From Methanoculleus formosensis (GTDB taxonomy: Archaea > Halobacteriota > Methanomicrobia > Methanomicrobiales > Methanoculleaceae): a stretch of 50,772 nt of DNA. Of this stretch, positions 15,779-35,987 are shown piece by piece. Every line of letters starts with the position of its first letter. The stretch's first letter is position 1. The position numbers and the translations under genes are program-made. The notes under the pieces were generated by a model. That model ran no database searches. It worked only from the letters and a program-made list of their open reading frames with translations, and was not told the origin of the DNA. The DNA is taken from positions 1 to 50,772 of the forward strand of contig NZ_VHLL01000012.1 in NCBI RefSeq assembly GCF_025384765.1. The letters run 5' to 3'.

Positions 15779-16483
15779 TCATCGGGCCTGAAGGTTGTTG
15801 CTCTCCAGAGTTCCCGGGAGGCGTCTCTTCCCTGTTTTGAGTATTATTTTCCCGCTGAACTGTAGCGTTACAACCCTGCTCTGTTTCTCCTGCTGTATAT
15901 GAACCAGTTCTTTGGATGCAAGTTTTGCACAAACACGTGACGCTGTGCTCTCGGATATCTGCACTCTCCGGGCAATTTCTGAAATAGAGGTTGGATTGTG
16001 TGCGGCGACGTCAGCCAGTATCTGGAGCGCTCTCTCATCGATCGAAAATGGGAGGCGCGGAGGATTGTATATTTCAGTTTCTCGTTCTATATCCGAGAAG
16101 ATTGCACATTGATGAATATGTGGAGCGAGTATGAGTGTGGCGGTGGTGAGAGCAACGAGAACCTCTCGTGGGCCGCCGGAGAGGTTGACTATTAGGCTCC
16201 CATCCGGATGAAATGGAGGTGTTGATGCACGAATTTCATCAAGAAGCGCAAGAATCATGGATTCAATATTACGGTTATCAACTCGCAGAACGTCTACACT
16301 AATATCGCCGCTGATCTTCTGGCTCATCTCCCTGACGGCGTCGATGGCTCGGTCTGCCCTGGCATCTTTCCCAAACTCCGGTCTGATCAGGCATATCCGG
16401 TCTCCCCGCTCAATCCCGCACCTGACAATCAGGGAGATGATATGAGAGGTGTCGAACCCGAGTGGCGAGAGATACGTTTTCAT
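15779..16483 (-). CDS. csa3: CRISPR-associated CARF-wHTH regulator Csa3
   Basis: Csa3 proteins sense cyclic oligonucleotides or related ligands through a CARF domain and control cas or adaptation genes. The 234-aa frame from ATG 16483 begins MKTYLSPLGFDTSHI, has a Rossmann-like CARF half with the ligand-loop motif NLSGGPRE (100-107), and ends in a winged helix (about 150-215: ALQILADVAAHNPTSISEIARRVQISESTASRVCAKL). It diverges from the cas operon across 132 bp. A minus-strand TATA box (16509-16515) lies about 29 bp from the ATG, so the transcript is probably leaderless. Csa3 is best known from type I-A loci; here it sits with a type I-D set. Confidence 0.88.
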   Translation of the reverse strand: MKTYLSPLGFDTSHIISLIVRCGIERGDRICLIRPEFGKDARADRAIDAVREMSQKISGDISVDVLRVDNRNIESMILALLDEIRASTPPFHPDGSLIVNLSGGPREVLVALTTATLILAPHIHQCAIFSDIERETEIYNPPRLPFSIDERALQILADVAAHNPTSISEIARRVQISESTASRVCAKLASKELVHIQQEKQSRVVTLQFSGKIILKTGKRRLPGTLESNNLQAR

Positions 16484-16615
16484 CAACTGAGTAATACTTC
16501 CCTGCCGGTATATATGCACTTTGACACAAATTGACCGCATGAATTGCACTTTTCTGCAAAAACCGGTCCTAAAAAAAGCCAAAAGGTTTATCAGAACCCG
16601 CACACATGCTAAATT
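16484..16615. promoter_or_regulatory. Divergent csa3 / cas6 promoter region
   Basis: This 132-bp spacer separates csa3 and cas6. Minus-strand TATA: tatatat at 16509-16515, about 29 bp before the csa3 ATG. Plus-strand: aaaaggttta at 16581-16590, about 27 bp before the cas6 ATG at 16616. Both spacings fit leaderless archaeal transcripts. The octamer tgcacttt occurs at 16515-16522, touching the csa3 TATA box, and again at 16545-16552, a 30-bp step or about three helical turns. It is a candidate operator, perhaps for Csa3. Confidence 0.6.
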
Positions 16616-17467
16616 ATGCGCCAGATATTCATCAAGGTGCGACCGAAGGATGCGTTCGAGGTTCCACATAGCGATGGGTATCAGGTATACTCCGCCCTGC
16701 TTGCACTCATTAAATCTGTAAATCCAGAGGTCAGCGAGAGATTACATGGCTCTTCGGTGCGCACAATGTCGGTCGGAGGTCTCAATGGAAATTTTGAGAG
16801 AAGTAACAAGAACGGCTTCAAACGCCTTGCGCCGGATAAGTTATACACGATACGGATCGGAGTCATCGATTCGCATGAGGAGGAATTTTTCCAGAATCTT
16901 GTATACCCCATACTCCTCGAAAGGCGGAATATTGTACTTGATAGAGGGGAGTTATGTGTCGAACATGTAGAAGACAGGCAAGTGTCGTATACAGACCTGT
17001 TTCGTAAGGTTGCCGGATACGCCGGCTCAACTCTGGAGATCAATTTTCTAACTCCGACATGTATCCAGTACAAGAACAGTAAAGTCACTGAAATGTTCCC
17101 GCAGCGAATTGCAGTATTCCATTCCATACTCTCAAAGTGGAATCTGGTGTGCCCTGACGGTTATAGGATGGATATAAATCGCGACGAATTTGGTCGGTAC
17201 TTGATAGAGAAACCGGATGTTCGATCATATACCACATACAGCGTTCTTGTGAATACGGTTTTTGACAGAGTGAATGGCCATGCCCGCCCTATCTTCAAAC
17301 AGGGTTTTGTTGGACGCTGTGGGTATGCATTCACCCCGGATGCACCAAAATCTTTCCGGAATGCTGTCACGATCCTTGCACTTTTTGCGGAGTTCAGTGG
17401 GGTTGGATCAAGCGTCACCCGGGGATGCGGCCAGGTGAGCGTAAGTTTAGAGGAGAAGGAAACATGA
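16616..17467 (+). CDS. cas6: CRISPR RNA endonuclease Cas6
   Basis: Cas6 cuts the CRISPR precursor RNA in each repeat. The 283-aa protein has the two-ferredoxin-fold layout, with the C-terminal glycine-rich loop EFSGVGSSVTRGCGQVSVSL characteristic of Cas6. His18 in the N-terminal VPHSDGYQVYSALL segment is a possible catalytic base, but that is not proven. The ATG at 16616 follows a TATA box by about 27 bp with no Shine-Dalgarno, so the mRNA is likely leaderless. It overlaps cas10d by 4 bp (ATGA) and is the first gene of the cas operon. Confidence 0.9.
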   Translation: MRQIFIKVRPKDAFEVPHSDGYQVYSALLALIKSVNPEVSERLHGSSVRTMSVGGLNGNFERSNKNGFKRLAPDKLYTIRIGVIDSHEEEFFQNLVYPILLERRNIVLDRGELCVEHVEDRQVSYTDLFRKVAGYAGSTLEINFLTPTCIQYKNSKVTEMFPQRIAVFHSILSKWNLVCPDGYRMDINRDEFGRYLIEKPDVRSYTTYSVLVNTVFDRVNGHARPIFKQGFVGRCGYAFTPDAPKSFRNAVTILALFAEFSGVGSSVTRGCGQVSVSLEEKET

Positions 17468-20400
17468 TGGTAAAGTCGCCAGAGAGCATTATCCCACCAG
17501 ATGTATTACGCGAATATCTCCGCCCGGAGACAGGGGACGCAATCCATGATCCATATCAGGTTCTTATCGATTATTATGAGATTATTGACCCGTCCCTCCG
17601 GGGCTCCAGCGTTGCATACCTCCCTGCAAAGAGTACGGAGATGGGGAAAGTTGACCAGACGATGCTCAACCATATCCGAAATGGTGTCTGGGCTCTCATT
17701 GAACTCAATGTCGGGCTAATCGCCCTCGGCTCTGCTAATGCTCTCTCTGAGCGGGAACTGCGAGAAGTGATTGCCCTCTTTTCGGTTCATGATCTCCACA
17801 AAATTCATGGAAAAGATTGGAAAGAGCAGTTTGATATTTCGCAGGAAGAAGTCCTCGAGTACGCTGAGGCGTTCGGAGCAACAAAATTCGCCCCCGACCT
17901 CACCGGACATGACTTCCAGTCAGTCGCCGTCGCACTGCACAAATCGATCGGATTCCATGCGAATCTCTCAGTAAAGTTTAACCTCTATCGCCCCTGGCTG
18001 ACGATCGCCGATACGCTTGCAAGTATAGAGCAGCCACAGGCAACGCCATCGATGCAGCAACAACTGGACCGGATCGACCCCTCGGTCGACTTCTACTATC
18101 ATACATTTCAGGAGGCAACCGGTATCCTCACCAATCTCGTCCATACCGGGATTGCCGGGTGGGCTTCAGAAAAAGGGCTCCACCCCCTCCTCATATTTGA
18201 GAAAGGAGTTCTTTACCTTGGGGAGGCGGACAAACAGTTTGAGTTGAACGGGGAGGAGGATATCAAAGAGATCTACCGGGCGTTCAGGGAGGCGCTTAAC
18301 TCCTCCCATCCTACATTCTCTGATACGCTTGAGTTGCAGAAGAGTATCGATGCATCACAAGCAAGCAAAGGATTTTACAGAATTGAAAATGTCTTCTTCT
18401 TCTATTCGGGAGTAGAGAAGGTTGCGAAAGCCTTCGCAGCTGCGGCTGTATTGAGAGAGAGTGAGAATACCGCAACCATCGAGGTAGACTGCACCGGTGG
18501 CGTGCTCAAGGTTGGAAACACAGAACCAGATATGCAGTACCCTCCGGCGCAGACGGTAAGTATTCCCCGGAAGTGTATCACCGGCATCACCGTCGACGGG
18601 CGGACGGTGGATACGGGCGATGTCTTGATCCGCTGTCGCTCAGAAGAGCGGAAACGAAAGAAATTCACACTGATCCCGGAATCCGTAGAGATCGATGGGC
18701 AGAGAGTTTCCGGGAAGGTTGCCATTAACGGGACCGGCCTGATGACCAGCCAGATCGGGTACCGGGCGCACATTATGGAGGATTTCGGGAGCGACATCGG
18801 CTGGGATTCAAAGATCATATCCTACTCCCGTGCAATCTCGGGGCTCCGGATGCAACTCATTGAACCTCTTATCAAGATCGGTGCGCTGGACTCGGCTGAC
18901 CCTGTACTTGAGACCTGCAGAATGTTCGGCGTCGATGCAGCCCTCTCCGAGCGCCTATCCGGATATGCTCAGGCTCATCGTACAGATGACCACCACCGCG
19001 TTGGCGGGTTCTGGAACTACTCATATGTTATTGCCCGGGATCTTCTCGATCGGGATATTGATGGGATTTGGTTTGCTGACATTCGAACATCCAACGAGAA
19101 GATCCAGTATCTTGAGGATTGCATCACGCGCTACCTCCAGAGAGTTCCTCATGAAAAGATCCAGGAACTCGAATCCGAGTTACTCTATCCTTACCAGGAA
19201 AAGATGCTCGTCTGGATATCCGAGAACCTCGAGTTCAACGGTTCGATGTTCTACGGCACATTTGAAAACAAGGCCGATAAGTTCCAGGCATATTGTAATG
19301 GTGGAGGTATCTGCCGCCTCTCCAACGATACGCCCTATGACAAGGAGAGGATCCCGTTATCCATTGGGGTGGGTATGCTTGGTCTTTCCTTTTCCAACCG
19401 TTTGCCGGTAGGTGCAAGCGAGCCTGCTCTGTATGTATCAGTCCCTATCGCGATCGAGATGGGATTAAGATATATCGGTCATGGAATTAAAGGAGGAGCC
19501 AACCGGATATACTTCCGGCTTATTCCCGACCACTTCTATACGCCGGTTCTATCCCGCCTGTTCTCACAGTTTTTAAGCGTATTTAATGGAGACTGCCAGA
19601 CAAACGTCCGGGCGCTTGCTCTTGATATCCTTTCCCGGGATACTCCACAGTACGAACTACTGGTTCGTGACCTTGTCTCGGAGTCCGGTCGGAAGAATGT
19701 CCTGCGGTATGCTGGCTATGGTTACAAGAGTCTCCACACAACCTATGACGTCGTCTTTAACAAGGTGAGGGATAACGACACTGAATACTGGTTTTTCGGA
19801 TCATATCTCGGGCTAATCCTCGCTGCTGCGACCGGATGCAGGGTGGTCGTCGGCGAGAACCCGATCTGCATGAGTCCTGGTGATGAGTTCTCAGCGATGG
19901 TGAAACTCGATGCACCGCATGCCGCTGTGAAGCGGATCTCCGGCGACGTCATCCCGCTTACAGAATTGAGCAGTGTGATCGATCTCGCATCGCTCGTAAT
20001 TGTACTCGGTTACGAGAATGTGATGGAGGATAAGAGGTTCCCGAAACATCTGCAGACGCTTAAAAACAAGATGTTTCCCGGGAGTTCTCTCTTAAAAGAT
20101 ATCTGGAGAAAGTATGAGAATGAATCAAGAAAAGGGGCATTCGTCAACCGTGCCCGCGGGTACCGCAATGAGAATGAAGAGATTATTTATGACGACAATC
20201 CAGGGCTCGTCTTCCTGGCGTTACGGCTTGACCGTATTGGAGGTGATGTAATGGCAGTTGAGACTATTCATGAACTTGCTGAACTCGGCCTGACGGTTGC
20301 TATCCCGAAGGGATATGAACCGCACCGGGTCGAGAAACTCTTCCGTGAGTCGGTGAAAGCAGTCCTCGCGAAGCGTGACGGTTCGTTTGCACGAGAAGAC

Positions 20401-20694
20401 TACGTTGATGCAGTATCTGGACGGTTGCTCAAGATGATGCGCCGCGCTGGTACTGATCAGTTCAGCCTTATCCCGGGACTCTATGAGTTTGACCGAACCC
20501 ACCGGTTTGCAGGGGCATTTGTAGATCACGTCTTCTATGGGCTCTTCGATGGTAATCCCGGGAAGTTGAAGCGTGCTGCAAACGATATCAGCGACGGTTA
20601 TTACTCCGCCACCCTTGAAATTAGGAATGACGCGTATCAGCGGGAGAGGGCGGCGATTGAGGCTAAGAAGCAAGAGAAGAAAGAGAAAATTTGA
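17464..20694 (+). CDS. cas10d: Type I-D large subunit Cas10d (Csc3) with HD nuclease domain
   Basis: Cas10d is the signature large subunit of the type I-D effector complex and carries the HD nuclease that in other type I systems sits on Cas3. The 1076-aa product shows HD-type residues H70 (MLNHIRNGV), H109-D110 (FSVHDLHKIHGKDW) and D183 (LTIADTLASIEQ). Family assignment rests on the HD start, length and its neighbours Csc2 and Csc1. The ATG at 17464 overlaps the cas6 stop (ATGA) behind a good GGAG site. The C-terminus is basic and helical. An older name for the family is Csc3. Confidence 0.88.
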   Translation: MMVKSPESIIPPDVLREYLRPETGDAIHDPYQVLIDYYEIIDPSLRGSSVAYLPAKSTEMGKVDQTMLNHIRNGVWALIELNVGLIALGSANALSERELREVIALFSVHDLHKIHGKDWKEQFDISQEEVLEYAEAFGATKFAPDLTGHDFQSVAVALHKSIGFHANLSVKFNLYRPWLTIADTLASIEQPQATPSMQQQLDRIDPSVDFYYHTFQEATGILTNLVHTGIAGWASEKGLHPLLIFEKGVLYLGEADKQFELNGEEDIKEIYRAFREALNSSHPTFSDTLELQKSIDASQASKGFYRIENVFFFYSGVEKVAKAFAAAAVLRESENTATIEVDCTGGVLKVGNTEPDMQYPPAQTVSIPRKCITGITVDGRTVDTGDVLIRCRSEERKRKKFTLIPESVEIDGQRVSGKVAINGTGLMTSQIGYRAHIMEDFGSDIGWDSKIISYSRAISGLRMQLIEPLIKIGALDSADPVLETCRMFGVDAALSERLSGYAQAHRTDDHHRVGGFWNYSYVIARDLLDRDIDGIWFADIRTSNEKIQYLEDCITRYLQRVPHEKIQELESELLYPYQEKMLVWISENLEFNGSMFYGTFENKADKFQAYCNGGGICRLSNDTPYDKERIPLSIGVGMLGLSFSNRLPVGASEPALYVSVPIAIEMGLRYIGHGIKGGANRIYFRLIPDHFYTPVLSRLFSQFLSVFNGDCQTNVRALALDILSRDTPQYELLVRDLVSESGRKNVLRYAGYGYKSLHTTYDVVFNKVRDNDTEYWFFGSYLGLILAAATGCRVVVGENPICMSPGDEFSAMVKLDAPHAAVKRISGDVIPLTELSSVIDLASLVIVLGYENVMEDKRFPKHLQTLKNKMFPGSSLLKDIWRKYENESRKGAFVNRARGYRNENEEIIYDDNPGLVFLALRLDRIGGDVMAVETIHELAELGLTVAIPKGYEPHRVEKLFRESVKAVLAKRDGSFAREDYVDAVSGRLLKMMRRAGTDQFSLIPGLYEFDRTHRFAGAFVDHVFYGLFDGNPGKLKRAANDISDGYYSATLEIRNDAYQRERAAIEAKKQEKKEKI

Positions 20695-20708
20695 GGAGGT
20701 TGGACATT

Positions 20709-21725
20709 ATGGCTGAGAAAATAGATTCATTTAAGGAAAAGATTGCTGGCTACACACTGGAGAAACCGGAGAGAAAACCAAAACAGAATTACGTAAGCAT
20801 CCTGATCTTACGTGAGTTACAGAGCGCTGCCAGGTTCACCACTGATGGAACCGAAGCCAACTCGGCTATTATCAGGGTCGGGGAGATCGAGGAGACCGTC
20901 GGCAAGCTTTTTGGACGGAAACAGGTTGCTAGCGATCGGAGAGTTGCGAAAGCGCTTCAGAGAACCCTCATCCAGGACAAGATGAACGCGGCAGTTAAGA
21001 AAGGCACGTGGGATGGCTGCTCGATGGTGGTCAACAGCATGTGTCAGCGGTGCCCGGAATGCGCCCTTTTTGGCAGTGCAGCATCAGATGAGGGGATCAG
21101 CATTACGTCACGTGTGATGTATGATGAAGCGTATACAATCCGCTCTATCGGCACGATCGTAGAGGAGTACTTCCAGAACGCACCCGGGGACGATTATGCG
21201 AAAGGAGCCACATCCGCTATCAGGGAGCCGGACTTCTTCAAGGAAGGCACGCTCTTCCCCTGTGTGGTGACCCTCAAAGACGTCACGCCTGAAGAGGTTC
21301 TCTTCTTCCTCAACATTACCGATCGGAACGTCCGGTACGGTGCGACCGGAACACGGTTTGGCAAAACCAGAAACCACATCCTCGGCGTGTATGCTAGCCA
21401 CCGCGAAGGCCCGTCGAGCCTTGAGGTCACCCGTGGGATTGCAGTTGCCCTTGCAAACGCGGCAGTTGCAAGCGATGAGAATTCATCAGATCCAGCAGAG
21501 CACCTCAAGAAAGTCATGACTGCAGACACCCTCCCCGTCGAATCGGTAACCAGAGCCGCTGTCCAGATCTACGAAGACCTTGCTGATAGGCAGCGGATTG
21601 CATACGTAAAATCTGACGCGGACGAGGTAAGTGCCATTCTCGATGAGATGAAGGACGATGCAGTTGTTAAAGCCATCCTTGAGGCGCAGGTAGATAAGAT
21701 TGCAGATTATGTTTCGGCGGATTGA
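20709..21725 (+). CDS. csc2: Type I-D backbone protein Csc2 (Cas7)
   Basis: Csc2 forms the crRNA-binding backbone of the I-D complex. The 338-aa frame from ATG 20709 reads MAEKIDSFKEKIAGY and has the family's CQRCPECALFG cysteine cluster and the RNVRYGATGTRFGKTRNHILG stretch. A strong GAGGAGGT site at 20693-20700 lies 8 bp before the ATG, so I prefer it to an upstream TTG at 20691. It starts 14 bp after cas10d and ends 11 bp before csc1. Confidence 0.92.
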   Translation: MAEKIDSFKEKIAGYTLEKPERKPKQNYVSILILRELQSAARFTTDGTEANSAIIRVGEIEETVGKLFGRKQVASDRRVAKALQRTLIQDKMNAAVKKGTWDGCSMVVNSMCQRCPECALFGSAASDEGISITSRVMYDEAYTIRSIGTIVEEYFQNAPGDDYAKGATSAIREPDFFKEGTLFPCVVTLKDVTPEEVLFFLNITDRNVRYGATGTRFGKTRNHILGVYASHREGPSSLEVTRGIAVALANAAVASDENSSDPAEHLKKVMTADTLPVESVTRAAVQIYEDLADRQRIAYVKSDADEVSAILDEMKDDAVVKAILEAQVDKIADYVSAD

Positions 21726-21736
21726 TGGAGGTATTG

Positions 21737-22486
21737 ATGTCTCAGGTATCGAGTTCTCCGAATAATGGCGCAGGTACTCGTGCCTTTGAGGGCGTCCTCG
21801 AACTCATGAGCGAGTTATTCTTTGCTTCGCTCGAACCAGGCAACAACTACGTAACGCGGCCGATCATCCTGAATACTGCCCTTTACTACGCACTGGGGTA
21901 CGCACAGGGTAACTATGTCAACAAGCCGGTAAACAAGCGATCAAAAAAGCAGCAACCGGCTTACATCGAGGAGACCAACGGTATCGTCGACACCATATAC
22001 GTGAGCCCTGCCCGCCCGATAGGAGACATACACTACACAAGCGAAAACTCAAACGCTCGCAGCGATGAGTATATCCAGTATAACCGGCTGAAAGAACAGA
22101 AAAACTCCCCAACGGGGAAGATTGGAACTAGGAAGCAGATCCAGCCAGGAGCCCGGTTCCGATTCTTCGTTCTCACGTTCGATGGAAGTGAACCTGATAT
22201 GCCCCCATATATCCGCGTTGGGAAGAAACGGTCAAAGGCACTTGTCACATGGAGGGAAGTCCCGGTCAGCATGACCGATGGAGAGTTCTTGATGAACCAC
22301 CCTGTTCTTGTCGATGACCTTGCAGAGATGCCTCTCGGAGATCTCTCTTTTCAGCGCATGCAACCGTTCGATGTTATTGAACGCGGGAGGTTTATCGAAC
22401 CGCACCTGGTGCTTGACTGCGGAGCTCCCGCAGGCAGGTTTGCGCTCCCGGCAAGCATCCGGTTCCTTCGGAGGTACCGGGCGTGA
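21737..22486 (+). CDS. csc1: Type I-D Csc1 (Cas5)
   Basis: Csc1 caps the 5' handle end of the crRNA in the I-D complex. The 249-aa product (MSQVSSSPNNGAG) has Csc1-like text in NYVTRPIILNTALYYALGYAQG and ends SIRFLRRYRA. Start choice: ATG 21737 follows GGAGGT by 4 bp; ATG 21725 is the alternative but overlaps that site. The stop overlaps the GTG of cas3 (GTGA). The identification rests partly on its fixed place between csc2 and cas3'. Confidence 0.85.
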   Translation: MSQVSSSPNNGAGTRAFEGVLELMSELFFASLEPGNNYVTRPIILNTALYYALGYAQGNYVNKPVNKRSKKQQPAYIEETNGIVDTIYVSPARPIGDIHYTSENSNARSDEYIQYNRLKEQKNSPTGKIGTRKQIQPGARFRFFVLTFDGSEPDMPPYIRVGKKRSKALVTWREVPVSMTDGEFLMNHPVLVDDLAEMPLGDLSFQRMQPFDVIERGRFIEPHLVLDCGAPAGRFALPASIRFLRRYRA

Positions 22487-24549
22487 TAGTAGAGGGGCTC
22501 TCGATACCTCGCTATGATGCTGAACCGCTCCTCGACTCTTTTCTTCCTTACGGCCACCAGGTCGTTGTTCGCGAGACAATTCGGAACCATGATGAGTTCT
22601 TCCTGTTTGTAACAGCTCCAACGGGGTCTGGAAAGACCGACTCGTGGGCAATACCGGCACTTTCCGGCAACCTGGGCGTTGTTATGGCGCTCTACCCGAC
22701 AAACGCGCTCGCAGAAGATCAGTTCAGAACGCTTTCCTCCCTCCGCAACCACCTGGGGTCTCAGACACCGGTCGAGTTTGTAACCTCAAAGACCCTCGGC
22801 ATCATGCGTGATAAGGCCGGTATGAGGATGACCAGGGGGGATATCCTGGAAGATCTGCTCCGCTCGATGTACCGGGCAGGCAGCGGCATCGTCGTGACTA
22901 ATCCTGATATCTTCATCTATGCCATCAAGAACTACTACTACAACAAATACCTCTCTTCTGCGCTGAAGAGTTTTGTTACTACCGTAGTTTTTGACGAGTT
23001 CCACCTCTACGATCTTCGACAGAGAGACCTGATACTCTTTATCCTGCATGATCTATTGTCATCAGGTTCTGCCGGCATGCGGAAGTTCATCTTCCTGTCT
23101 GCAACGCCTGAACCCTCTCTGTTGGAGAAGGTCAGAGATGTGATCGGGGTCCAACCTATTGTGGCAGACGTTTTCTGTGGTCAGCCTGTGGTCGATGAGC
23201 GACTCATTTTACCAGAAGTTGATATTGATTTCCGGCACGGTAAGAGGTTCCGGGCCGGAGAATCTATTGTAGCACACCTGGGCGACTTCCTTGAGTTTCG
23301 AGAAGGATTCCGGACCGCCGTCATTCTGGATAGCGCTATCGAAGTGGAGTTGGTCAGCGAAACCCTGCGGAACCAGACAGATCTTGAGATCTGTGAGGTG
23401 AGCGGATTCCGAAAAGATCCGATCGACGAGCCATTCGATATCCTTGTCGGGAACAAGGCAGTGGAGGTCGGAATTGACTTTAAAGGGGATACTGCCATCC
23501 AGCGCCTGGTTTTTTCAAGTAATACCGTGAGCGAGTTCCTGCAACGTTTCGGAAGACTCCGAAACCCTCAACCTGATGTCAGGTACAAGGCGCTCTGTTA
23601 TGCTCCTGCCGGGGTGGTACAACACTTCTCCGGCTATGAGCGGATGTCAAGGCAGGAACTGGAAAATGATCTGCGAAGGACCATGCAGGATCCCCGCGTC
23701 TTTGAGAACTTCAGGTGGCGATACGGCTACCTTGAGGCATGGGAGTATATATATCGGAACGCAACGGGCATCGGTGCCCGTGAGGCACGAGTTATAAAAC
23801 ATCTGCGCGCTTTCCCACCATCGCAGGGAGGGGTACCACAGGATATACGATCAGGGTATATAGACCGAGGATTAAGTCTGATTTATCTCCATTACTTGAA
23901 GGATGGAGGTATAAATCCACGAGAGGCCTGGAAACTTCTCCCGAAGCTCGAAAAAATGAGCGATGCATGCCTCGATATCATTGAAGAATTGGGAAATTTC
24001 CGCGGCAGCGAGTTATCACTTGCCTATTATCAGGTCCAAACGGGTACTATCGGGACATATAACCTCTTCTTCCTTCTCCGGTGGGCGGATCTGGAACTTG
24101 TTGACCGGCGGACATTTCTGCGGCGGATCCCCGGTGAGAAGGTAAGGGAGGCAAAAGAGGTCCTTGATAGGGCGCTTGGGTGTGCGATCATCCATCGAAT
24201 GAACGATCGCCCACGAAGAGTCTCGCTTGATGGAGCACGGCTCCCCCAGATGGATGAGACAGAGGCGTCACGAAAACCCGCGAAGGCGCTTGGGATCCGT
24301 CCAGTCGTAAGAAGCCAAGATCAAGATGAACGCCCCCTTAACCTCGTGGATGTTTCAAGGGAGATTGGAAAACAGGGTCTCTTCTGCAGATACCTATCTC
24401 ATTCAGGTTTTATTTCAAAGCGTCTCTATGATCTCGACGATTACACGTTTTTGATGAATTTCAAGGACGGAAGCCTCGCTCTTGGTATTGATGCCCTGTA
24501 CGTGGACTGTGCCGTGCATGATCTTTATCAACGGAGAGAGGGACCATGA
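22483..24549 (+). CDS. cas3: Type I-D helicase Cas3' (no HD domain)
   Basis: This superfamily-2 DNA helicase unwinds target DNA after recognition by the I-D complex. The 688-aa protein has Walker A TAPTGSGKT (44-52), motif II DEFH (171-174), motif III SAT (206-208), motif V GNKAVEVGIDFKGD and motif VI LQRFGRLRN. There is no HD nuclease segment, matching the I-D split where HD is on Cas10d. It starts at GTG 22483, which overlaps csc1, with GGAGGT upstream, and ends in an ATGA overlap with cas4. Confidence 0.92.
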   Translation: MIVEGLSIPRYDAEPLLDSFLPYGHQVVVRETIRNHDEFFLFVTAPTGSGKTDSWAIPALSGNLGVVMALYPTNALAEDQFRTLSSLRNHLGSQTPVEFVTSKTLGIMRDKAGMRMTRGDILEDLLRSMYRAGSGIVVTNPDIFIYAIKNYYYNKYLSSALKSFVTTVVFDEFHLYDLRQRDLILFILHDLLSSGSAGMRKFIFLSATPEPSLLEKVRDVIGVQPIVADVFCGQPVVDERLILPEVDIDFRHGKRFRAGESIVAHLGDFLEFREGFRTAVILDSAIEVELVSETLRNQTDLEICEVSGFRKDPIDEPFDILVGNKAVEVGIDFKGDTAIQRLVFSSNTVSEFLQRFGRLRNPQPDVRYKALCYAPAGVVQHFSGYERMSRQELENDLRRTMQDPRVFENFRWRYGYLEAWEYIYRNATGIGAREARVIKHLRAFPPSQGGVPQDIRSGYIDRGLSLIYLHYLKDGGINPREAWKLLPKLEKMSDACLDIIEELGNFRGSELSLAYYQVQTGTIGTYNLFFLLRWADLELVDRRTFLRRIPGEKVREAKEVLDRALGCAIIHRMNDRPRRVSLDGARLPQMDETEASRKPAKALGIRPVVRSQDQDERPLNLVDVSREIGKQGLFCRYLSHSGFISKRLYDLDDYTFLMNFKDGSLALGIDALYVDCAVHDLYQRREGP

Positions 24550-25097
24550 TTGCAGATCTCGTCAATATCTCCGATCTCAACCAGTACCTCTACTGCCCCC
24601 GGCGGCTCTATTACCTCATGTTTTTCAAAACGCAGGAGATCAATGTTCACCTCGCGGACGGCAGGGGGATGCACGCCCGTCAGGGGCGTCGTGGGGGATG
24701 GTATAGGGAAGTTTACCTGAGATCTGAGCGCCTCCGACTGCACGGCAGGATTGACCTGATCGACATGCAGGATAAGGCGGCGCCGGTCGAGCGCAAACGG
24801 GGGAACGCATACTTTGAAAATGACCTCGTCCAGCTTGCGGCATACGCAATGCTCTTGGAGGAGCACCTTGGCGAACCGGTACCTCTTGGATACCTGTATC
24901 TCTATGGAACAAATGAGCGCCATCCAATCGAGATCACAGGACAGCTCCGTCAAAAAGTTACGGATACAGTTGCGGATGTCAGTGCAATGCAGATTGATAA
25001 AATCCCGACGTTTTGCGAAAATCCACGCAAGTGTGGGAAGTGTAGTGTGGTCGGATATTGTATGCCCTATGAGACGAGAGTTCTGGAGGAGGTCTGA
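24546..25097 (+). CDS. cas4: CRISPR adaptation exonuclease Cas4
   Basis: Cas4 trims new spacers and helps choose them by PAM. The 183-aa protein has all the expected residues: C17 (YCPRR), H43, D70, E82 and K84 (VERKRG) of the RecB-like nuclease core, and the C-terminal cluster C157, C163, C166 and C172 which with C17 can hold an iron-sulfur cluster. It overlaps cas3' by 4 bp and is followed directly by cas1. Confidence 0.95.
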   Translation: MIADLVNISDLNQYLYCPRRLYYLMFFKTQEINVHLADGRGMHARQGRRGGWYREVYLRSERLRLHGRIDLIDMQDKAAPVERKRGNAYFENDLVQLAAYAMLLEEHLGEPVPLGYLYLYGTNERHPIEITGQLRQKVTDTVADVSAMQIDKIPTFCENPRKCGKCSVVGYCMPYETRVLEEV

Positions 25098-26132
25098 TTG
25101 GAGGCGATAGCAAGCGATGGTGCAGAGAAGTTCCGCGAAGTAAAGGCAGCAGAGGGACTGTTCGATGATGAAGTGATCTATGTGTCGGCGCAGGGCAACC
25201 GCATCGGGCTTGATGGAGGGCGGATTGTCGTTACCACAGCGGATAAGCAGGAAACGGTGAGTTCTTTTCCAGTGGAGAAGGTGCGCACAGTCAATGTGTT
25301 TGGAAACATATCTGTATCCACTCCATTCCTTGCGAGTTGTGGGAAGACAGGAATGTCGGTGAACTACTTCACGTGGTACGGGAAGTATGTGGGGAGCTTC
25401 GTCCCGGAACAGAATACGATTGCCGAGATCAGGCGTTGCCAGGCGTCACTTGGTTGTGAGGAGGCATTGGGGATTGTACGGGCGATCATCGGTGCCAAAA
25501 TCCGAAACTCGCGTACGCTGCTTTCCCGGAAAAAGGTGCGTCCCCCTGAACGACTGAAGGTCCTCGAAGCGAATGTACATTCCGTCAACGATATGAACCA
25601 GATCCGCGGAATAGAGGGCGAGGCAGCTGCTCTGTATTTTGGATGTCTTGATGAATGCCTCATTGAGGGGTGGACGTTTGAGAAGAGAACGCGAAGGCCT
25701 CCTCAGGACCACATTAACTCGCTCCTATCTCTAACATATGCCATGATGCAGAACGAGGTGATGAGCGCTCTCCGACAGTACAATCTGGACCCGTTCATCG
25801 GCGTAATGCACACCGATCGGCATGGCAGGCCGGCGCTGGCCCTCGATCTCATAGAGGAGTTCCGACCGATCTTCTGCGACGCTTTTGCTATCCGGTTGGT
25901 TAACCAGCGCATCCTTGACCATGACGACTTTACAGCTGAAAATCGCCTGAAAGAACACGCACTCAAGAAGTACCTCTCTCACTTCGACAGTTACATGAAA
26001 GAGACGTTTATGCACCCAAAGTTCAGGTACACCGTAACGCGGCGGCGTGCGGTGGTCATGCAGGCGATCCTGCTCCGGAAAGCAATTGTTGGAGAGATGA
26101 AACGGTATCATCCATTCGTATTTCTAAGGTGA
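25098..26132 (+). CDS. cas1: CRISPR integrase Cas1
   Basis: Cas1 inserts new spacers at the leader end. The 344-aa protein has the metal-site motifs RGIEGEAAALYF (E173) and VMHTDRHGRPALALDLIEEFRP (H238 and the acidic residues about 250-254). No ATG is available near the start. TTG 25098 lies directly after the cas4 stop and 5 bp after a strong GGAGGAGGT (25084-25092), so I choose it; GTG 25173 would match the conserved N-terminus but lacks a ribosome-binding site. Confidence 0.94.
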   Translation: MEAIASDGAEKFREVKAAEGLFDDEVIYVSAQGNRIGLDGGRIVVTTADKQETVSSFPVEKVRTVNVFGNISVSTPFLASCGKTGMSVNYFTWYGKYVGSFVPEQNTIAEIRRCQASLGCEEALGIVRAIIGAKIRNSRTLLSRKKVRPPERLKVLEANVHSVNDMNQIRGIEGEAAALYFGCLDECLIEGWTFEKRTRRPPQDHINSLLSLTYAMMQNEVMSALRQYNLDPFIGVMHTDRHGRPALALDLIEEFRPIFCDAFAIRLVNQRILDHDDFTAENRLKEHALKKYLSHFDSYMKETFMHPKFRYTVTRRRAVVMQAILLRKAIVGEMKRYHPFVFLR

Positions 26133-26570: not shown

Positions 26571-29500
26571 GTCACAGCTCATCAGAAAACCCGATAGGGA
26601 TTGAAACCCGGGCGCAGAGGTGCATGCCAGCGCCCGATATCCAGAGTCACAGCTCATCAGAAAACCCGATAGGGATTGAAACTCAGCGATCGCGTCCACG
26701 GCGTCGGCGAACTTCGTCACAGCTCATCAGAAAACCCGATAGGGATTGAAACGAGGGCTTCCCCGCCCCGGACGCACCGGTAAAGGCTAGTCACAGCTCA
26801 TCAGAAAACCCGATAGGGATTGAAACTGCTTGGTGGCCGTTCTGGTTGTGCCGGGTTCGGCGCTGGTCACAGCTCATCAGAAAACCCGATAGGGATTGAA
26901 ACGATGGACGGCCGTTAACCCGTTAGCCTCTGAGCGGTCACAGCTCATCAGAAAACCCGATAGGGATTGAAACAACTCGTAGACGCTGATGTAGGGGAGC
27001 CGGAACCCGTCACAGCTCATCAGAAAACCCGATAGGGATTGAAACATATAAAAATCAACCGAAAGGAGCCCGCGGGCCATGTCACAGCTCATCAGAAAAC
27101 CCGATAGGGATTGAAACTCAACTGACTCATGCAGGCGTCGAGCGGGGTCGCTCTGTCACAGCTCATCAGAAAACCCGATAGGGATTGAAACAATGTGTCA
27201 GACAGGATTTGAACCTGTGATACCCTGTCACAGCTCATCAGAAAACCCGATAGGGATTGAAACATCGACCGCGAACTGCACGACGCATTGATGAAAGAGT
27301 CACAGCTCATCAGAAAACCCGATAGGGATTGAAACCCGGCTTTACGGGCTCCGCTGGGGGCTTGAGGGACGTCACAGCTCATCAGAAAACCCGATAGGGA
27401 TTGAAACAACGACCTGGCAAAGGCACTCAGTGGCGATGACCCGGTCACAGCTCATCAGAAAACCCGATAGGGATTGAAACGACTCCTGGCCTGCGGTGGC
27501 GTCCCGGACCAGGTCGGTCACAGCTCATCAGAAAACCCGATAGGGATTGAAACGTGGGCGACGATGGTCTCCTGCGAGATGATCCCCAGTCACAGCTCAT
27601 CAGAAAACCCGATAGGGATTGAAACGACGGCAAGGACCGCGAGGGCCGTTGTCGTGCCGAAGTCACAGCTCATCAGAAAACCCGATAGGGATTGAAACTT
27701 CGTCGACCCGGGGCGGCTCCACACCTACATAGTAGGTCACAGCTCATCAGAAAACCCGATAGGGATTGAAACCCAGGGTGACATTCTGCCGGACCTCTGC
27801 ATCGAGGTTGTCACAGCTCATCAGAAAACCCGATAGGGATTGAAACTGCAACGGCGGCGGCTGCCTGCTCCTTGGCAGTCGGGTCACAGCTCATCAGAAA
27901 ACCCGATAGGGATTGAAACCCGAGCGTGACCTCGCCGACCTCCGAGAAGAGATCAGTCACAGCTCATCAGAAAACCCGATAGGGATTGAAACATCTTGTT
28001 CTGCCGGCTGACGGTGATCCCGCGGCAGGGTCACAGCTCATCAGAAAACCCGATAGGGATTGAAACCCGCCCCGCAATCCGGACGCGCTAACCCCCAAGA
28101 TGGCGTCACAGCTCATCAGAAAACCCGATAGGGATTGAAACCTCCCGCGCGCCGCACCGCTCGCCGAGACGTATCAGACTGTCTGGGAGGAGTCACAGCT
28201 CATCAGAAAACCCGATAGGGATTGAAACGGCGCGAGGTAAGCGACGACAACGCCGTCCTTTTCGTCACAGCTCATCAGAAAACCCGATAGGGATTGAAAC
28301 AGCGACTCCGATCCGCAGTAGGGGCACCTCATACCAGGTCACAGCTCATCAGAAAACCCGATAGGGATTGAAACAAATAAGGAGTTTCTAACACATGCCG
28401 AAAACCACAGTCACAGCTCATCAGAAAACCCGATAGGGATTGAAACTCCCCGTACCTCATCCGGGCCGCGAGAGCGTCGCGGGTCACAGCTCATCAGAAA
28501 ACCCGATAGGGATTGAAACCCCCCGGCGACGGCCACCGTAGCCCCTCCGATCTGTCACAGCTCATCAGAAAACCCGATAGGGATTGAAACAGAGCGTTAT
28601 AAAACTACAGTCCTGGGGGAATCTCAGTCACAGCTCATCAGAAAACCCGATAGGGATTGAAACAGTCGTATCGATGCACGGGCGGCCGATACCTCGGGTC
28701 ACAGCTCATCAGAAAACCCGATAGGGATTGAAACTCTTCGGGGTGTGCTGTGCCCGGGGCCGTGCCGCAGGGGTCACAGCTCATCAGAAAACCCGATAGG
28801 GATTGAAACGAGGAGGTACCCGGCCAGGTCGTCCTGGTGCCATCGTCACAGCTCATCAGAAAACCCGATAGGGATTGAAACGATATCGAGATCCAGTATA
28901 CGCTTCGTCGGTCGCGGTCACAGCTCATCAGAAAACCCGATAGGGATTGAAACCACCTACCCCTACGTGGACGGGTGCCCGCACCTCGAGTCACAGCTCA
29001 TCAGAAAACCCGATAGGGATTGAAACGAGTGAGTGGGCTGCCGAGCAGGGCAAGATCGCCCGGTCACAGCTCATCAGAAAACCCGATAGGGATTGAAACC
29101 TGGAGGTTGTAGCCGACCGGGCCCTTGAGGGACGGTCACAGCTCATCAGAAAACCCGATAGGGATTGAAACCTGGAGGTTGTAGCCGACCGGGCCCTTGA
29201 GGGACGGTCACAGCTCATCAGAAAACCCGATAGGGATTGAAACTTCGTGTTCGGTGCTTTGAGGTAGAAGGTCTTGTTCGTCACAGCTCATCAGAAAACC
29301 CGATAGGGATTGAAACACCGGGACGGTATCGCCGGCGAAATCCGGGGCGGGAGTGTCACAGCTCATCAGAAAACCCGATAGGGATTGAAACACTGCCCCG
29401 GCCGCTGCGGCACCCCCGGCGGCGATTGTCACAGCTCATCAGAAAACCCGATAGGGATTGAAACTTGGAGAGGGAGAACCCCTCCACCGCACAGGCGATA

Positions 29501-32500
29501 TGTCACAGCTCATCAGAAAACCCGATAGGGATTGAAACTTATGATTGTTGTGGCGATCATGACAAAAAATTGATGTCACAGCTCATCAGAAAACCCGATA
29601 GGGATTGAAACCAGAGCGCTACCCGGCGATCAGAGATGCTCGCATCGTCACAGCTCATCAGAAAACCCGATAGGGATTGAAACCCGGAGGAGATCCGCGA
29701 GAAGACCAAGCCGCACACCGTCACAGCTCATCAGAAAACCCGATAGGGATTGAAACCCAGTCATGCGAGACGCGCTGGTTCGTGGCCTCGGTATGTCACA
29801 GCTCATCAGAAAACCCGATAGGGATTGAAACACATCGAGAAGGAACTGCAAGCGGCCGCAGAGGGGTCACAGCTCATCAGAAAACCCGATAGGGATTGAA
29901 ACAACGGCATCCAGCCCTTCCGCGCCGCAGCCTCTGCGGTCACAGCTCATCAGAAAACCCGATAGGGATTGAAACATTGGGAGGGGCGCTGCCCCCCCAT
30001 TGCACCGGCAGTGTCACAGCTCATCAGAAAACCCGATAGGGATTGAAACAGCGTGAGCATGTTGAAGCGGGTGCTCCTATGTAGTCACAGCTCATCAGAA
30101 AACCCGATAGGGATTGAAACTGGGCGGCGTCCATGTCGAATACAACCGTGAACTCGGTCACAGCTCATCAGAAAACCCGATAGGGATTGAAACTAAGATG
30201 TGGTTCCGGTGCCGCTCCCTCCAGTAAATGTCACAGCTCATCAGAAAACCCGATAGGGATTGAAACTTTCTGCCTGACTCGTCAGAACCGCCGACATGGT
30301 GAAGTCACAGCTCATCAGAAAACCCGATAGGGATTGAAACTTTCTTGTCATGTTCTTTTCACCTCTCTTATTACGTCACAGCTCATCAGAAAACCCGATA
30401 GGGATTGAAACGCGGTATTCTCTCTCGCACCCCTGATCGGGTCCAGTCACAGCTCATCAGAAAACCCGATAGGGATTGAAACAGTGAGAATGGAGACGGT
30501 GCAAACAACTTTTGAGAACTCGTCACAGCTCATCAGAAAACCCGATAGGGATTGAAACCATCCTGCCTCGAGCCGCACCCCGTCACCTATGAGTCACAGC
30601 TCATCAGAAAACCCGATAGGGATTGAAACTTTGTGGTTTTGCCGGTTCAAAGCGATAGATTTTAACGTCACAGCTCATCAGAAAACCCGATAGGGATTGA
30701 AACTTGGTATTGAAATCCTCCGAGACTGAGGCGCCGGTGACCGTCACAGCTCATCAGAAAACCCGATAGGGATTGAAACGAAGACAGTCAGGAACTCCCG
30801 GGCAATGTGGCGATCGCCCGTCACAGCTCATCAGAAAACCCGATAGGGATTGAAACCAGCAGCCGGCTGTGCGACTCGTTGACCGCGGCGATCGTCGTCA
30901 CAGCTCATCAGAAAACCCGATAGGGATTGAAACAGGGAACCCCCCGGTTTCCCCTGGCTCTATGACGGGTCACAGCTCATCAGAAAACCCGATAGGGATT
31001 GAAACAGAAGAAAGGTTACTTGATTGTTGATCCTGTATTTGGTCACAGCTCATCAGAAAACCCGATAGGGATTGAAACTTACGCTTTGACTCTCCGGGAT
31101 CGTCGAGACCCCTGTCACAGCTCATCAGAAAACCCGATAGGGATTGAAACATAGGCTAATGGGCCGGGGAACCGGCCGCTATTGTTTGTCACAGCTCATC
31201 AGAAAACCCGATAGGGATTGAAACTCGTTCATTCCGGCATTTTCAGTTCTCCCCTCCGCAGTCACAGCTCATCAGAAAACCCGATAGGGATTGAAACAGG
31301 ACGTTGAACTCTCGCCTCTGCTGGCTTCGTTAGCGTCACAGCTCATCAGAAAACCCGATAGGGATTGAAACACTACCTCCCGGTTCGCTGGCTCCGCTCC
31401 TGGTGGCTGTCACAGCTCATCAGAAAACCCGATAGGGATTGAAACAGAAACCGCATATCCCCGGCAGCGTTCCAGAGCAGCGTCACAGCTCATCAGAAAA
31501 CCCGATAGGGATTGAAACCCTCGTTATCGTGTTCATGGTACTACTTCTGTTTCGGTCACAGCTCATCAGAAAACCCGATAGGGATTGAAACATTCATCCT
31601 TCGCTCGACCCTGCCGGGTTTCGGATGCAGTCACAGCTCATCAGAAAACCCGATAGGGATTGAAACTTTCTTACGCCATCGGGCGGCGTCTCGATGCAGC
31701 GTCACAGCTCATCAGAAAACCCGATAGGGATTGAAACCGGGACATTCGGCAAACCGGGGCATACATAGCGAAGTATGTCACAGCTCATCAGAAAACCCGA
31801 TAGGGATTGAAACCCGGCCTCGATCTGCTTCATCCGGTCGTAGACCCGGGTCACAGCTCATCAGAAAACCCGATAGGGATTGAAACCAAGGGTGACGACC
31901 CGGGTTCAAATCCCGGCCGGGGGTCACAGCTCATCAGAAAACCCGATAGGGATTGAAACATAGTTGCAGTTTCCGGGGGGTTTTGGTAGGTTGCGTCACA
32001 GCTCATCAGAAAACCCGATAGGGATTGAAACAGCGAGGGCAACGGGAGTACGATCGCGGAGGGAGGTCACAGCTCATCAGAAAACCCGATAGGGATTGAA
32101 ACCGGGCGGGCGTCGAGAAGCACATCACGCCACATCTGGTCACAGCTCATCAGAAAACCCGATAGGGATTGAAACTTCGCGATCAAGTCGTCCGGAACCC
32201 CGGGGCCGTCGCGTCACAGCTCATCAGAAAACCCGATAGGGATTGAAACTTGACCTGCCGGAGGTTGAGCGCCTTTCTGCTTCGTCACAGCTCATCAGAA
32301 AACCCGATAGGGATTGAAACCGGCACCCGAGCAGGCACACTTACCCCGCTGCAGCGTCACAGCTCATCAGAAAACCCGATAGGGATTGAAACGCGAGGTC
32401 CTCCGAGGAGTACCCCTCTGTGTTGTCGTCACAGCTCATCAGAAAACCCGATAGGGATTGAAACCCGCCGCGCTGCACGAAGGCGGGGTGGAGGTCGAAG

Positions 32501-35500
32501 TCACAGCTCATCAGAAAACCCGATAGGGATTGAAACATGTCGTATTATGGCTGGCTGCAGCACTGCGACTCCTGTCACAGCTCATCAGAAAACCCGATAG
32601 GGATTGAAACGGGCTGCCTACGCTTCTTGTTCGCATGTATCTCCTCGTCACAGCTCATCAGAAAACCCGATAGGGATTGAAACAGCACCGGAGGGGGGAG
32701 GCGCTAACATGTCCCTCGCCGTCACAGCTCATCAGAAAACCCGATAGGGATTGAAACTGGAATCACCTGGTTCCGGGCCGTATCAATGTCATCGTCACAG
32801 CTCATCAGAAAACCCGATAGGGATTGAAACCCGGACGGGCTGCACCCCAGGGTGGTCCCGGTGGCGTCACAGCTCATCAGAAAACCCGATAGGGATTGAA
32901 ACTCGACTCGGATACCCTCACCACGGACGACCAGACCCTGTCACAGCTCATCAGAAAACCCGATAGGGATTGAAACAACCGGGACGCGACCACGCAGTCC
33001 ACCCCGACCGTCACAGCTCATCAGAAAACCCGATAGGGATTGAAACCGGATGGCGGCGGCGTCAGAAGTCGATGAGGGCGCAGTCACAGCTCATCAGAAA
33101 ACCCGATAGGGATTGAAACGGTACTGCCGAAGCCGACGTGATCCGGGCCCAGAAGGTCACAGCTCATCAGAAAACCCGATAGGGATTGAAACGTGCGATA
33201 GGTGTGGGTTCTGGTGCAGCCCCCGCCGGGTCACAGCTCATCAGAAAACCCGATAGGGATTGAAACTCGAGCACCAGGCAGCCTGCGGACCAGTGAGCCG
33301 GTTCGTCACAGCTCATCAGAAAACCCGATAGGGATTGAAACGCGTCGGCGAGGTTCCAGATCCCGATCTCGGCCCGGTGTCACAGCTCATCAGAAAACCC
33401 GATAGGGATTGAAACAGTCAGTGTGATGTCCATGGTTAGTCCTCCATGTTGTCACAGCTCATCAGAAAACCCGATAGGGATTGAAACACGTTGGCGTCGT
33501 TCGCTACGGTGTGCGAGGCGATGGTCACAGCTCATCAGAAAACCCGATAGGGATTGAAACTCTGAGGAGCGGCCGGACTACGTCGCCGACATCACCGTCA
33601 CAGCTCATCAGAAAACCCGATAGGGATTGAAACGGCCTCGGATGGGACGGGGTCACGGTCGCAACCGTAGTCACAGCTCATCAGAAAACCCGATAGGGAT
33701 TGAAACGCGAGCTTCTCGGTGGTGCGCTTGGCAGCGACACCAGTCACAGCTCATCAGAAAACCCGATAGGGATTGAAACTGAGATCATCAAGGCGGGCGC
33801 GCCCAATGCCCCGCGTCACAGCTCATCAGAAAACCCGATAGGGATTGAAACTGTACATTGCCGGTCGTCTGCGCAATCCGACGCAGCGTCACAGCTCATC
33901 AGAAAACCCGATAGGGATTGAAACTCGCCCAGGCCGAGCGCGTCGGCGTGGACATGTTCCCGTCACAGCTCATCAGAAAACCCGATAGGGATTGAAACCC
34001 GACCAGGGAAAACAGAATCTCTACAAGCGTGCTCATGTCACAGCTCATCAGAAAACCCGATAGGGATTGAAACACCTCTCTCCTCGGTGATATGGTGGCG
34101 GGGGTTTTTGTCACAGCTCATCAGAAAACCCGATAGGGATTGAAACCTCGTGAGCGACCCGCCGCCCCGAGTGACACTTTCTCGGTCACAGCTCATCAGA
34201 AAACCCGATAGGGATTGAAACGACTACACGGGAGATTGCACCAGCGCCGACGTTCCCGTCACAGCTCATCAGAAAACCCGATAGGGATTGAAACAAAACC
34301 GGCGGGATCCAGTGCTGGGGAGAAGATGTGGTGTCACAGCTCATCAGAAAACCCGATAGGGATTGAAACACCCCCGCTGCGGACAGGACCGGGCGCCCCC
34401 CGGTGGTCACAGCTCATCAGAAAACCCGATAGGGATTGAAACTGCGCAAGGTCGGCGGATACCTCAAGCCCGAATTGTCACAGCTCATCAGAAAACCCGA
34501 TAGGGATTGAAACGTGAGCGTGACAGCTGCATCCTGCCAGGCAACTCCGGTCACAGCTCATCAGAAAACCCGATAGGGATTGAAACTGGCCCGCGGGCTG
34601 GCGGGTCTGTGAGTGCGGGGAGAGTCACAGCTCATCAGAAAACCCGATAGGGATTGAAACAACGGGAACCACCCCGCCTTGACCGCCGCCACCGCATAGT
34701 CACAGCTCATCAGAAAACCCGATAGGGATTGAAACGACGTGTATCACCTCCTCGTGGTGATGGAGCACGACGGTCACAGCTCATCAGAAAACCCGATAGG
34801 GATTGAAACACCGGGGAACTAAAGGGTGACGGCCCGACCATCAACATCGTCACAGCTCATCAGAAAACCCGATAGGGATTGAAACAAGGTTACGCCTGCC
34901 GGCCGCTCGTATTTCCGGCTGCAGTCACAGCTCATCAGAAAACCCGATAGGGATTGAAACTCTTCCTTGGGGTAGATCTCAAGGGTTTGGTTGACGGTCA
35001 CAGCTCATCAGAAAACCCGATAGGGATTGAAACGCCGTGCAGCACGTTGGCTACTGACCCCCCCACCGTCACAGCTCATCAGAAAACCCGATAGGGATTG
35101 AAACGGTAATCGTAGTCCCGTCAGGGTTGACGATCACGAGTCTGTCACAGCTCATCAGAAAACCCGATAGGGATTGAAACTGACGCTGCGCAGAAGTATG
35201 AGAGAGGCTGGGCCGAGGTCACAGCTCATCAGAAAACCCGATAGGGATTGAAACAGGAACGGGTAAGACTTGGTAGAGAGGTGAAAGACGTCACAGCTCA
35301 TCAGAAAACCCGATAGGGATTGAAACTTCAAGCGCGCCGGGGAGCGGCCTGAGAACCTGAGTCACAGCTCATCAGAAAACCCGATAGGGATTGAAACGCG
35401 ACCCGCTGACCCCTACGGCGGCAGACTACCTGTAGTCACAGCTCATCAGAAAACCCGATAGGGATTGAAACCTGATCATCGGACGGCTGCAGCGACGCGA

Positions 35501-35987
35501 ACTGCCGGGGTCACAGCTCATCAGAAAACCCGATAGGGATTGAAACGACCTCACCATCACCGTCACCGCGCTCGACGACGAGTCACAGCTCATCAGAAAA
35601 CCCGATAGGGATTGAAACCAGGCGCGGATGCAGTACACCTGCATGGCGGAATCGGTCACAGCTCATCAGAAAACCCGATAGGGATTGAAACCAATATCTG
35701 ACGGAGACTGTCGATGCCGACGGGCAGGGTCACAGCTCATCAGAAAACCCGATAGGGATTGAAACTACGCATAAAGAGTGCTATCGAAGAGGAAGAAGAT
35801 GCTAGTCACAGCTCATCAGAAAACCCGATAGGGATTGAAACGTCCCGGTGACGGCCGGCCCGCTCACCGGAGGGGGTAGTCACAGCTCATCAGAAAACCC
35901 GATAGGGATTGAAACCCTCTTGCGCCGTCCCGCCTGATCTTCCGGGGAGAGTCACAGCTCATCAGAAAACCCGATAGGGATTGAAAA
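26571..35987 (+). CRISPR. CRISPR array, 129 repeats of 37 bp, 128 spacers
   Basis: The repeat starts GTCACAGCTC, contains the short palindrome CCCGATAGGG and ends GGGATTGAAAC. I counted 129 copies starting at 26571 and ending with the one at 35951. The spacing between copies is 70-77 bp throughout, except one of 87. Spacers are 33-40 nt apart from one of 50 nt. All internal repeats look identical; the last differs only in its final base (A for C at 35987). One spacer is present twice in a row. The repeat end fits the type I-D genes upstream, so this is the crRNA source for that system. Confidence 0.98.

Follow-up and report, generated by a model that had tools for sequence, protein, structure and literature searches.

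A CRISPR array beside type I-D cas genes

We analysed a stretch of 50,772 nucleotides from Methanoculleus formosensis (contig NZ_VHLL01000012.1 of assembly GCF_025384765.1; hereafter the window), in which a long CRISPR array with the repeat GTCACAGCTCATCAGAAAACCCGATAGGGATTGAAAC adjoins the type I-D signature genes cas10d, csc1, csc2 and cas3d (Table 1). The last repeat (35951–35987) is the only degenerate one, ending in GAAAA where the others end in GAAAC, and we therefore infer that the leader end of the array is on the left, adjoining the cas genes. Spacer lengths were between 33 and 40 nt, except for spacer 22 (28142–28191), which is 50 nt long, and spacers 35 and 36 (29100–29206) were identical, representing a duplicated repeat-spacer unit.

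Table 1 Positions of the cas genes, the CRISPR array and selected spacers matching virus A within the window.
Feature	Position	Strand	Description
CARF-domain regulator (Csa3-like)	15779–16669	−	Divergent from the cas operon
Type I-D cas operon	16616–26132	+	PADLOC profiles
cas6	16616–17467	+	PADLOC profiles
cas10d	17425–20694	+	PADLOC profiles
csc2/cas7d	20691–21725	+	PADLOC profiles
csc1/cas5d	21722–22486	+	PADLOC profiles
cas3d	22483–24549	+	PADLOC profiles
cas4	24546–25097	+	PADLOC profiles
cas1	25098–26132	+	PADLOC profiles
CRISPR array	26571–35987	+	128 spacers between 129 repeats of 37 nt; 9.4 kb
Spacers 31 and 34	28810–29062	+	Virus A, 32/35 in the terminase gene and 33/36 in the portal gene; PAM GTG
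Spacers 58 and 59	30780–30896	+	Virus A, 35/40 in the terminase gene, flank CTG; 39/40 in the avd gene, PAM GTG
Spacer 72 (adjoins spacer 73)	31814–31849	+	31/36 to the virus A reverse transcriptase gene, PAM GTG
Spacer 73	31887–31922	+	PAM-proximal 10 nt CAAGGGTGAC, virus-specific; other ~26 nt GACCCGGGTTCAAATCCCGGCCGGGG, tRNA-Arg 3′ end (T-arm and acceptor 3′ strand)

Spacer 73 of the 128 (CAAGGGTGACGACCCGGGTTCAAATCCCGGCCGGGG) occupies exactly the interval in which the original prediction had seen a spacer resembling the 3′ end of a tRNA. It is flanked on both sides by perfect 37-nt repeats, and its length of 36 nt is the modal length in the array. The perfect T-arm with a TTCAAAT loop that had been described is present (CCGGG-TTCAAAT-CCCGG) and is followed by the acceptor 3′ strand CCGGGG. 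Two details needed correction: the final g of the acceptor-like end read as ccggggg already belongs to the next repeat, as its first base, and the string cccgggttcaaatcccgg, which does contain the T-arm, reaches one base beyond the 5-bp arm. Only ~1 × 10−5 copies of the 17-mer of the T-arm are expected from the base composition of the window, and the tRNA-Arg genes of the same genome end in 25–28 nt that are nearly identical to the tRNA-like part of the spacer, indicating that the likeness is not due to chance. Spacer 73 did not stand out as an unusually structured crRNA, ranking only 45th among the 128 spacers.

Viral source of spacer 73 and the question of self-targeting

When the central 25 bases of spacer 73 were searched against IMG/VR for exact matches, a single contig was returned, IMGVR_UViG_3300000032_000052 (hereafter virus A; L061, L095 and L096; 21,276 bases). 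It matched the spacer at 36 of 36 bases (L061:2146–2181) with a 5′-GTG flank. A relative of virus A, IMGVR_UViG_3300002446_000920 (virus B; L097), was recovered in a second, relaxed scan and matched at 33 of 36 bases with a 5′-GTA flank. Including spacer 73, ten spacers of the array matched virus A at ≥75% identity, the nine others being spacers 18, 31, 34, 37, 58, 59, 72, 94 and 100 (75–97.5%), and this threshold was reached in 0 of 256 tests with shuffled spacers. The genes of virus A for a terminase, a Mu-like portal and a Mu-F-like protein identify it as a tailed virus, which also encodes a diversity-generating retroelement (bAvd, E = 1.7 × 10−12; reverse transcriptase, E = 5 × 10−21), with the protospacer of spacer 73 located ~400 bp downstream of the reverse transcriptase gene. 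The array thereby connects an uncultivated tailed virus that has a diversity-generating retroelement with a Methanoculleus-type host. The retroelement occupies L061:1–1744 with avd, the reverse transcriptase gene and a template-like repeat; avd is targeted by spacer 59, the reverse transcriptase gene by spacer 72, and the tRNA-like site immediately beyond that gene by spacer 73. The occurrence of virus A spacers as adjacent pairs (58/59 and 72/73) was not significant (p = 0.15).

Among the nine matches of ≥86% identity to virus A or to Methanoculleus virus Blf4, seven had GT at PAM positions −3/−2 (P = 4 × 10−8). The published type I-D PAM in Synechocystis is 5′-GTN (PMC10212523), with which both the GTG at the spacer 73 protospacer and the GT in these seven matches agree, and the PAM thus fits a type I-D system. 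The type I-D system of Synechocystis 6803 has the same signature cas genes as the one described here together with a PAM of the GTN kind, whereas the Microcystis type I-D PAM, GTH, would not accept the GTG that is dominant at the protospacers of this array. The suggestion that the spacer records a foreign element was therefore borne out by the search against viruses, in that a complete match with a flank fitting the PAM was found, and a viral origin of spacer 73 is nearly certain.

The original prediction had also considered a self-targeting spacer against a host tRNA. We regard it as highly improbable that the spacer derives from, or regulates, a host tRNA gene. The PAM-distal 26 nt of spacer 73 differ from the genome’s own tRNA-Arg(GCG) at one position only, but over the whole spacer the best host match was 28 of 36 bases to this gene (78%, below the 90% bar of the original prediction), followed by 27 of 36 to tRNA-Arg(CCG), and the matching bases were concentrated in the PAM-distal part. 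Within the first 10 positions, which form the seed, 3 and 4 bases matched tRNA-Arg(GCG) and tRNA-Arg(CCG), respectively, and the bases at the PAM position were CTG and CTC, neither of which is GTN. Virus A fits the spacer better on both counts. Moreover, the crRNA has the same sense as the tRNA, such that pairing with the tRNA molecule is impossible. Since the host tRNA-Arg genes have neither the PAM nor a seed match, spacer 73 is probably safe for the cell under type I-D recognition rules, judging from the PAM and seed behavior of type I systems. A spacer that contains most of a tRNA 3′ end can be safe when PAM and seed decide between self and non-self.

A tRNA-Arg 3′ end in viruses A and B

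The site in virus A, CGACCCGGGTTCAAATCCCGGCCGGGGCGT, corresponds to the terminal part of a tRNA-Arg gene, starting with the T-arm and ending with the discriminator base, and lies beside the viral flank CCGGGGCGTCNCCACAATTTTCTCC. In both viruses, the Methanoculleus-type tRNA-Arg gene is represented only by its final ~30 nt, through the discriminator G, and ARAGORN detected no full tRNA in either of them. The virus A 29-mer CGACC...GGCG has exact copies in tRNA-Arg(CCG) of several congeneric genomes. In virus B, the tRNA end is at the same place as in virus A, between conserved viral flanks (77–87% identity around it). The two viruses differ at the left edge of the tRNA piece, where CGACC in virus A corresponds to the CCG isoacceptor and TTTTGACC in virus B to the GCG isoacceptor; the virus B edge reads TTTTGACCC... 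and has TTT instead of GAC at spacer 73 positions 8–10. This cluster of differences could result from exchange of an att core and not from drift, which two sequences cannot prove. That the virus A contig is chimeric, or gained a host tRNA fragment through metagenome assembly, is barely credible. Its sequence does include Ns and a break in the reading frame near 2870, but contig B is independent and has the same piece in the same place between conserved flanks, and in spacer 73 the viral junction has been copied independently by a biological process.

We consider, with a probability of about 0.7, that spacer 73 is a normal antiviral spacer lying across a probable viral attP and that it spares the host’s own tRNA gene. 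Given the viral origin, the chance that the tRNA-Arg piece is an attP or a relic attP is roughly three in four, which suggests tRNA-Arg as the integration site of virus A. The predicted record of an element with a tRNA end as its attachment site is largely supported. The 36/36 match with its PAM, the presence of the tRNA-Arg 3′ end alone and its conservation in a relative speak for it, while neither an integrase nor an integrated copy was found. Specifically, the tyrosine integrase domain PF00589 had no match on contigs A and B, which are both partial (21 and 11 kb), and no integrated relatives of the viruses were detected in 40 genomes of the family by terminase or by the protein encoded downstream of the tRNA piece. 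A search of the genome contig collection for proviruses, including an att-junction-like DNA pattern, was likewise negative, and among 35 genomes of the genus there was no extra copy of the tRNA-Arg 3′ end within 2 mismatches, aside from spacer 73.

In this reading, the type I-D system acquired spacer 73 from a tailed virus that infects Methanoculleus-like methanogens, and the protospacer spans the left edge of the ~30-nt viral tRNA-Arg 3′ end, most likely an attP core or its relic. The crRNA seed falls in virus-specific sequence beside the GTG PAM, with only the PAM-distal ~26 nt in common with the host tRNA-Arg genes. The effector would be expected to cleave the DNA of free virus as well as the junction on the viral side of any integrated copy, but to spare the intact chromosomal tRNA gene. 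Should the virus integrate by this core, the targetable viral-left junction would keep GTG-CAAGGGTGAC beside the core. Both interference by spacer 73 and tolerance of the cell’s own tRNA are predicted here from sequence. We found no report in the open-access literature of a natural spacer across a tRNA-derived attP, which does not prove that none exists.

With its seed positioned at the edge of the tRNA-derived core, spacer 73 could be evaded by a virus that switches isoacceptors. The GAC to TTT change in virus B would both extend the match to tRNA-Arg(GCG) and introduce three mismatches within or adjacent to the crRNA seed. That integration-site switching doubles as CRISPR evasion in this way is an unlikely, speculative extension of the attachment-site reading.

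Two other functions could be assigned to the viral tRNA end. It may act at the RNA level as a tRNA-like element, such as a T-arm/acceptor minihelix marking a point of mRNA processing, which we consider very unlikely. A weak mascRNA-like Rfam match (E = 0.56, under the gathering score) and an upstream 5′ strand that pairs at 6 of 7 positions are compatible with such an element. However, a 6/7 complement also occurred in 28–44% of shuffled upstream sequences, folding was no better than that of shuffles (z = 0.2 in viruses A and B), and the primary-sequence match to Methanoculleus tRNA-Arg, which extends to different isoacceptors, exceeds what structure alone would need.

The tRNA piece may instead be coding and contribute to the N-terminus of the protein encoded downstream. 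The att core would then lie within a gene, as in SSV-type elements with suicidal integrases, where attP lies inside int, but the gene here would encode a recombinase that escaped recognition. We judge this unlikely. In viruses A and B, the piece does lie in an open frame that runs from an ATG into the downstream gene free of indels (82% amino-acid identity), but the downstream protein had no Pfam match and its PHROGs matches were insignificant (E ≥ 0.28). Of the substituted codons within codons 1–48, 12 were nonsynonymous and 6 synonymous, and third-position bias was slight, such that coding selection on these codons is unsupported; further downstream the ratio was 38:38 with strong third-position bias. 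The gene in question (L061:2265–3466; L097:4734–5936) encodes a protein of ~400 amino acids, in which an N-terminus resembling DNA-binding domains and a motif of the PD-(D/E)XK kind (IFDMVAY...FEFKY) were noted by eye. Its structure model was too poor for use (pLDDT 32).

Comparison with known archaeal viruses and further spacers

The closest precedent for the site in virus A is found in the fuselloviruses (SSVs), which likewise carry the 3′ end of an archaeal tRNA gene, with T-arm and acceptor strand, but no full tRNA. Fuselloviruses integrate at tRNA genes, and integration at tRNA-Arg genes (GCG, TCG) has been documented for SSVs (PMC6452263). The T-arm region of spacer 73 occurs in SSVs at 25 of 26 bases, and in two records that we checked it was inside the annotated integrase gene. 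In SSV-type elements the recombination site (attP) lies inside the tyrosine integrase gene (PMC8371274), whereas no such gene was found on viruses A and B. Unlike fuselloviruses, virus A is a head-tail virus, with a terminase and a Mu-like portal. The segment common to virus A and tRNA-Arg is ~30 nt, below the 40–50 bp that are usual for the shared segment of suicidal integrases (PMC8371274). An SSV-type (suicidal) integrase was considered for the protein downstream of the tRNA end, as the core is in an open frame, but was not supported, since the protein has no Pfam match and no PF00589 match was found in the partial contig.

Eight spacers of the array resembled Methanoculleus virus Blf4 (Pungoviridae; 75–92% identity), indicating that the organism with this array is one that such viruses infect, probably a Methanoculleus species; Blf4 itself has been described as lytic. 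Spacer 73 did not match Blf4 at ≥75% identity. The Blf4-like spacers tended to be adjacent (18/19, 111/112 and 124/125/126, at 27847–27955 and 34661–35804), and the resulting four pairs were more than expected by permutation (p = 0.0002). Such adjacency is what primed or burst acquisition would give, and priming in type I-D systems has been described as untested (PMC10212523).

A second tRNA-like spacer was observed near the left end of the array. Spacer 9 (27192–27226) is the antisense of a tRNA 3′ end, reading ACAGG-TTCAAAT-CCTGT-CTGACACA as its reverse complement. Apart from the spacer itself, no match within three mismatches was present in the 40 genomes of the family, and the sole IMG/VR match to its pattern fell within a tRNA-Tyr gene on a contig that has 14 tRNA genes, which makes a virus-encoded tRNA gene the likely source of spacer 9.
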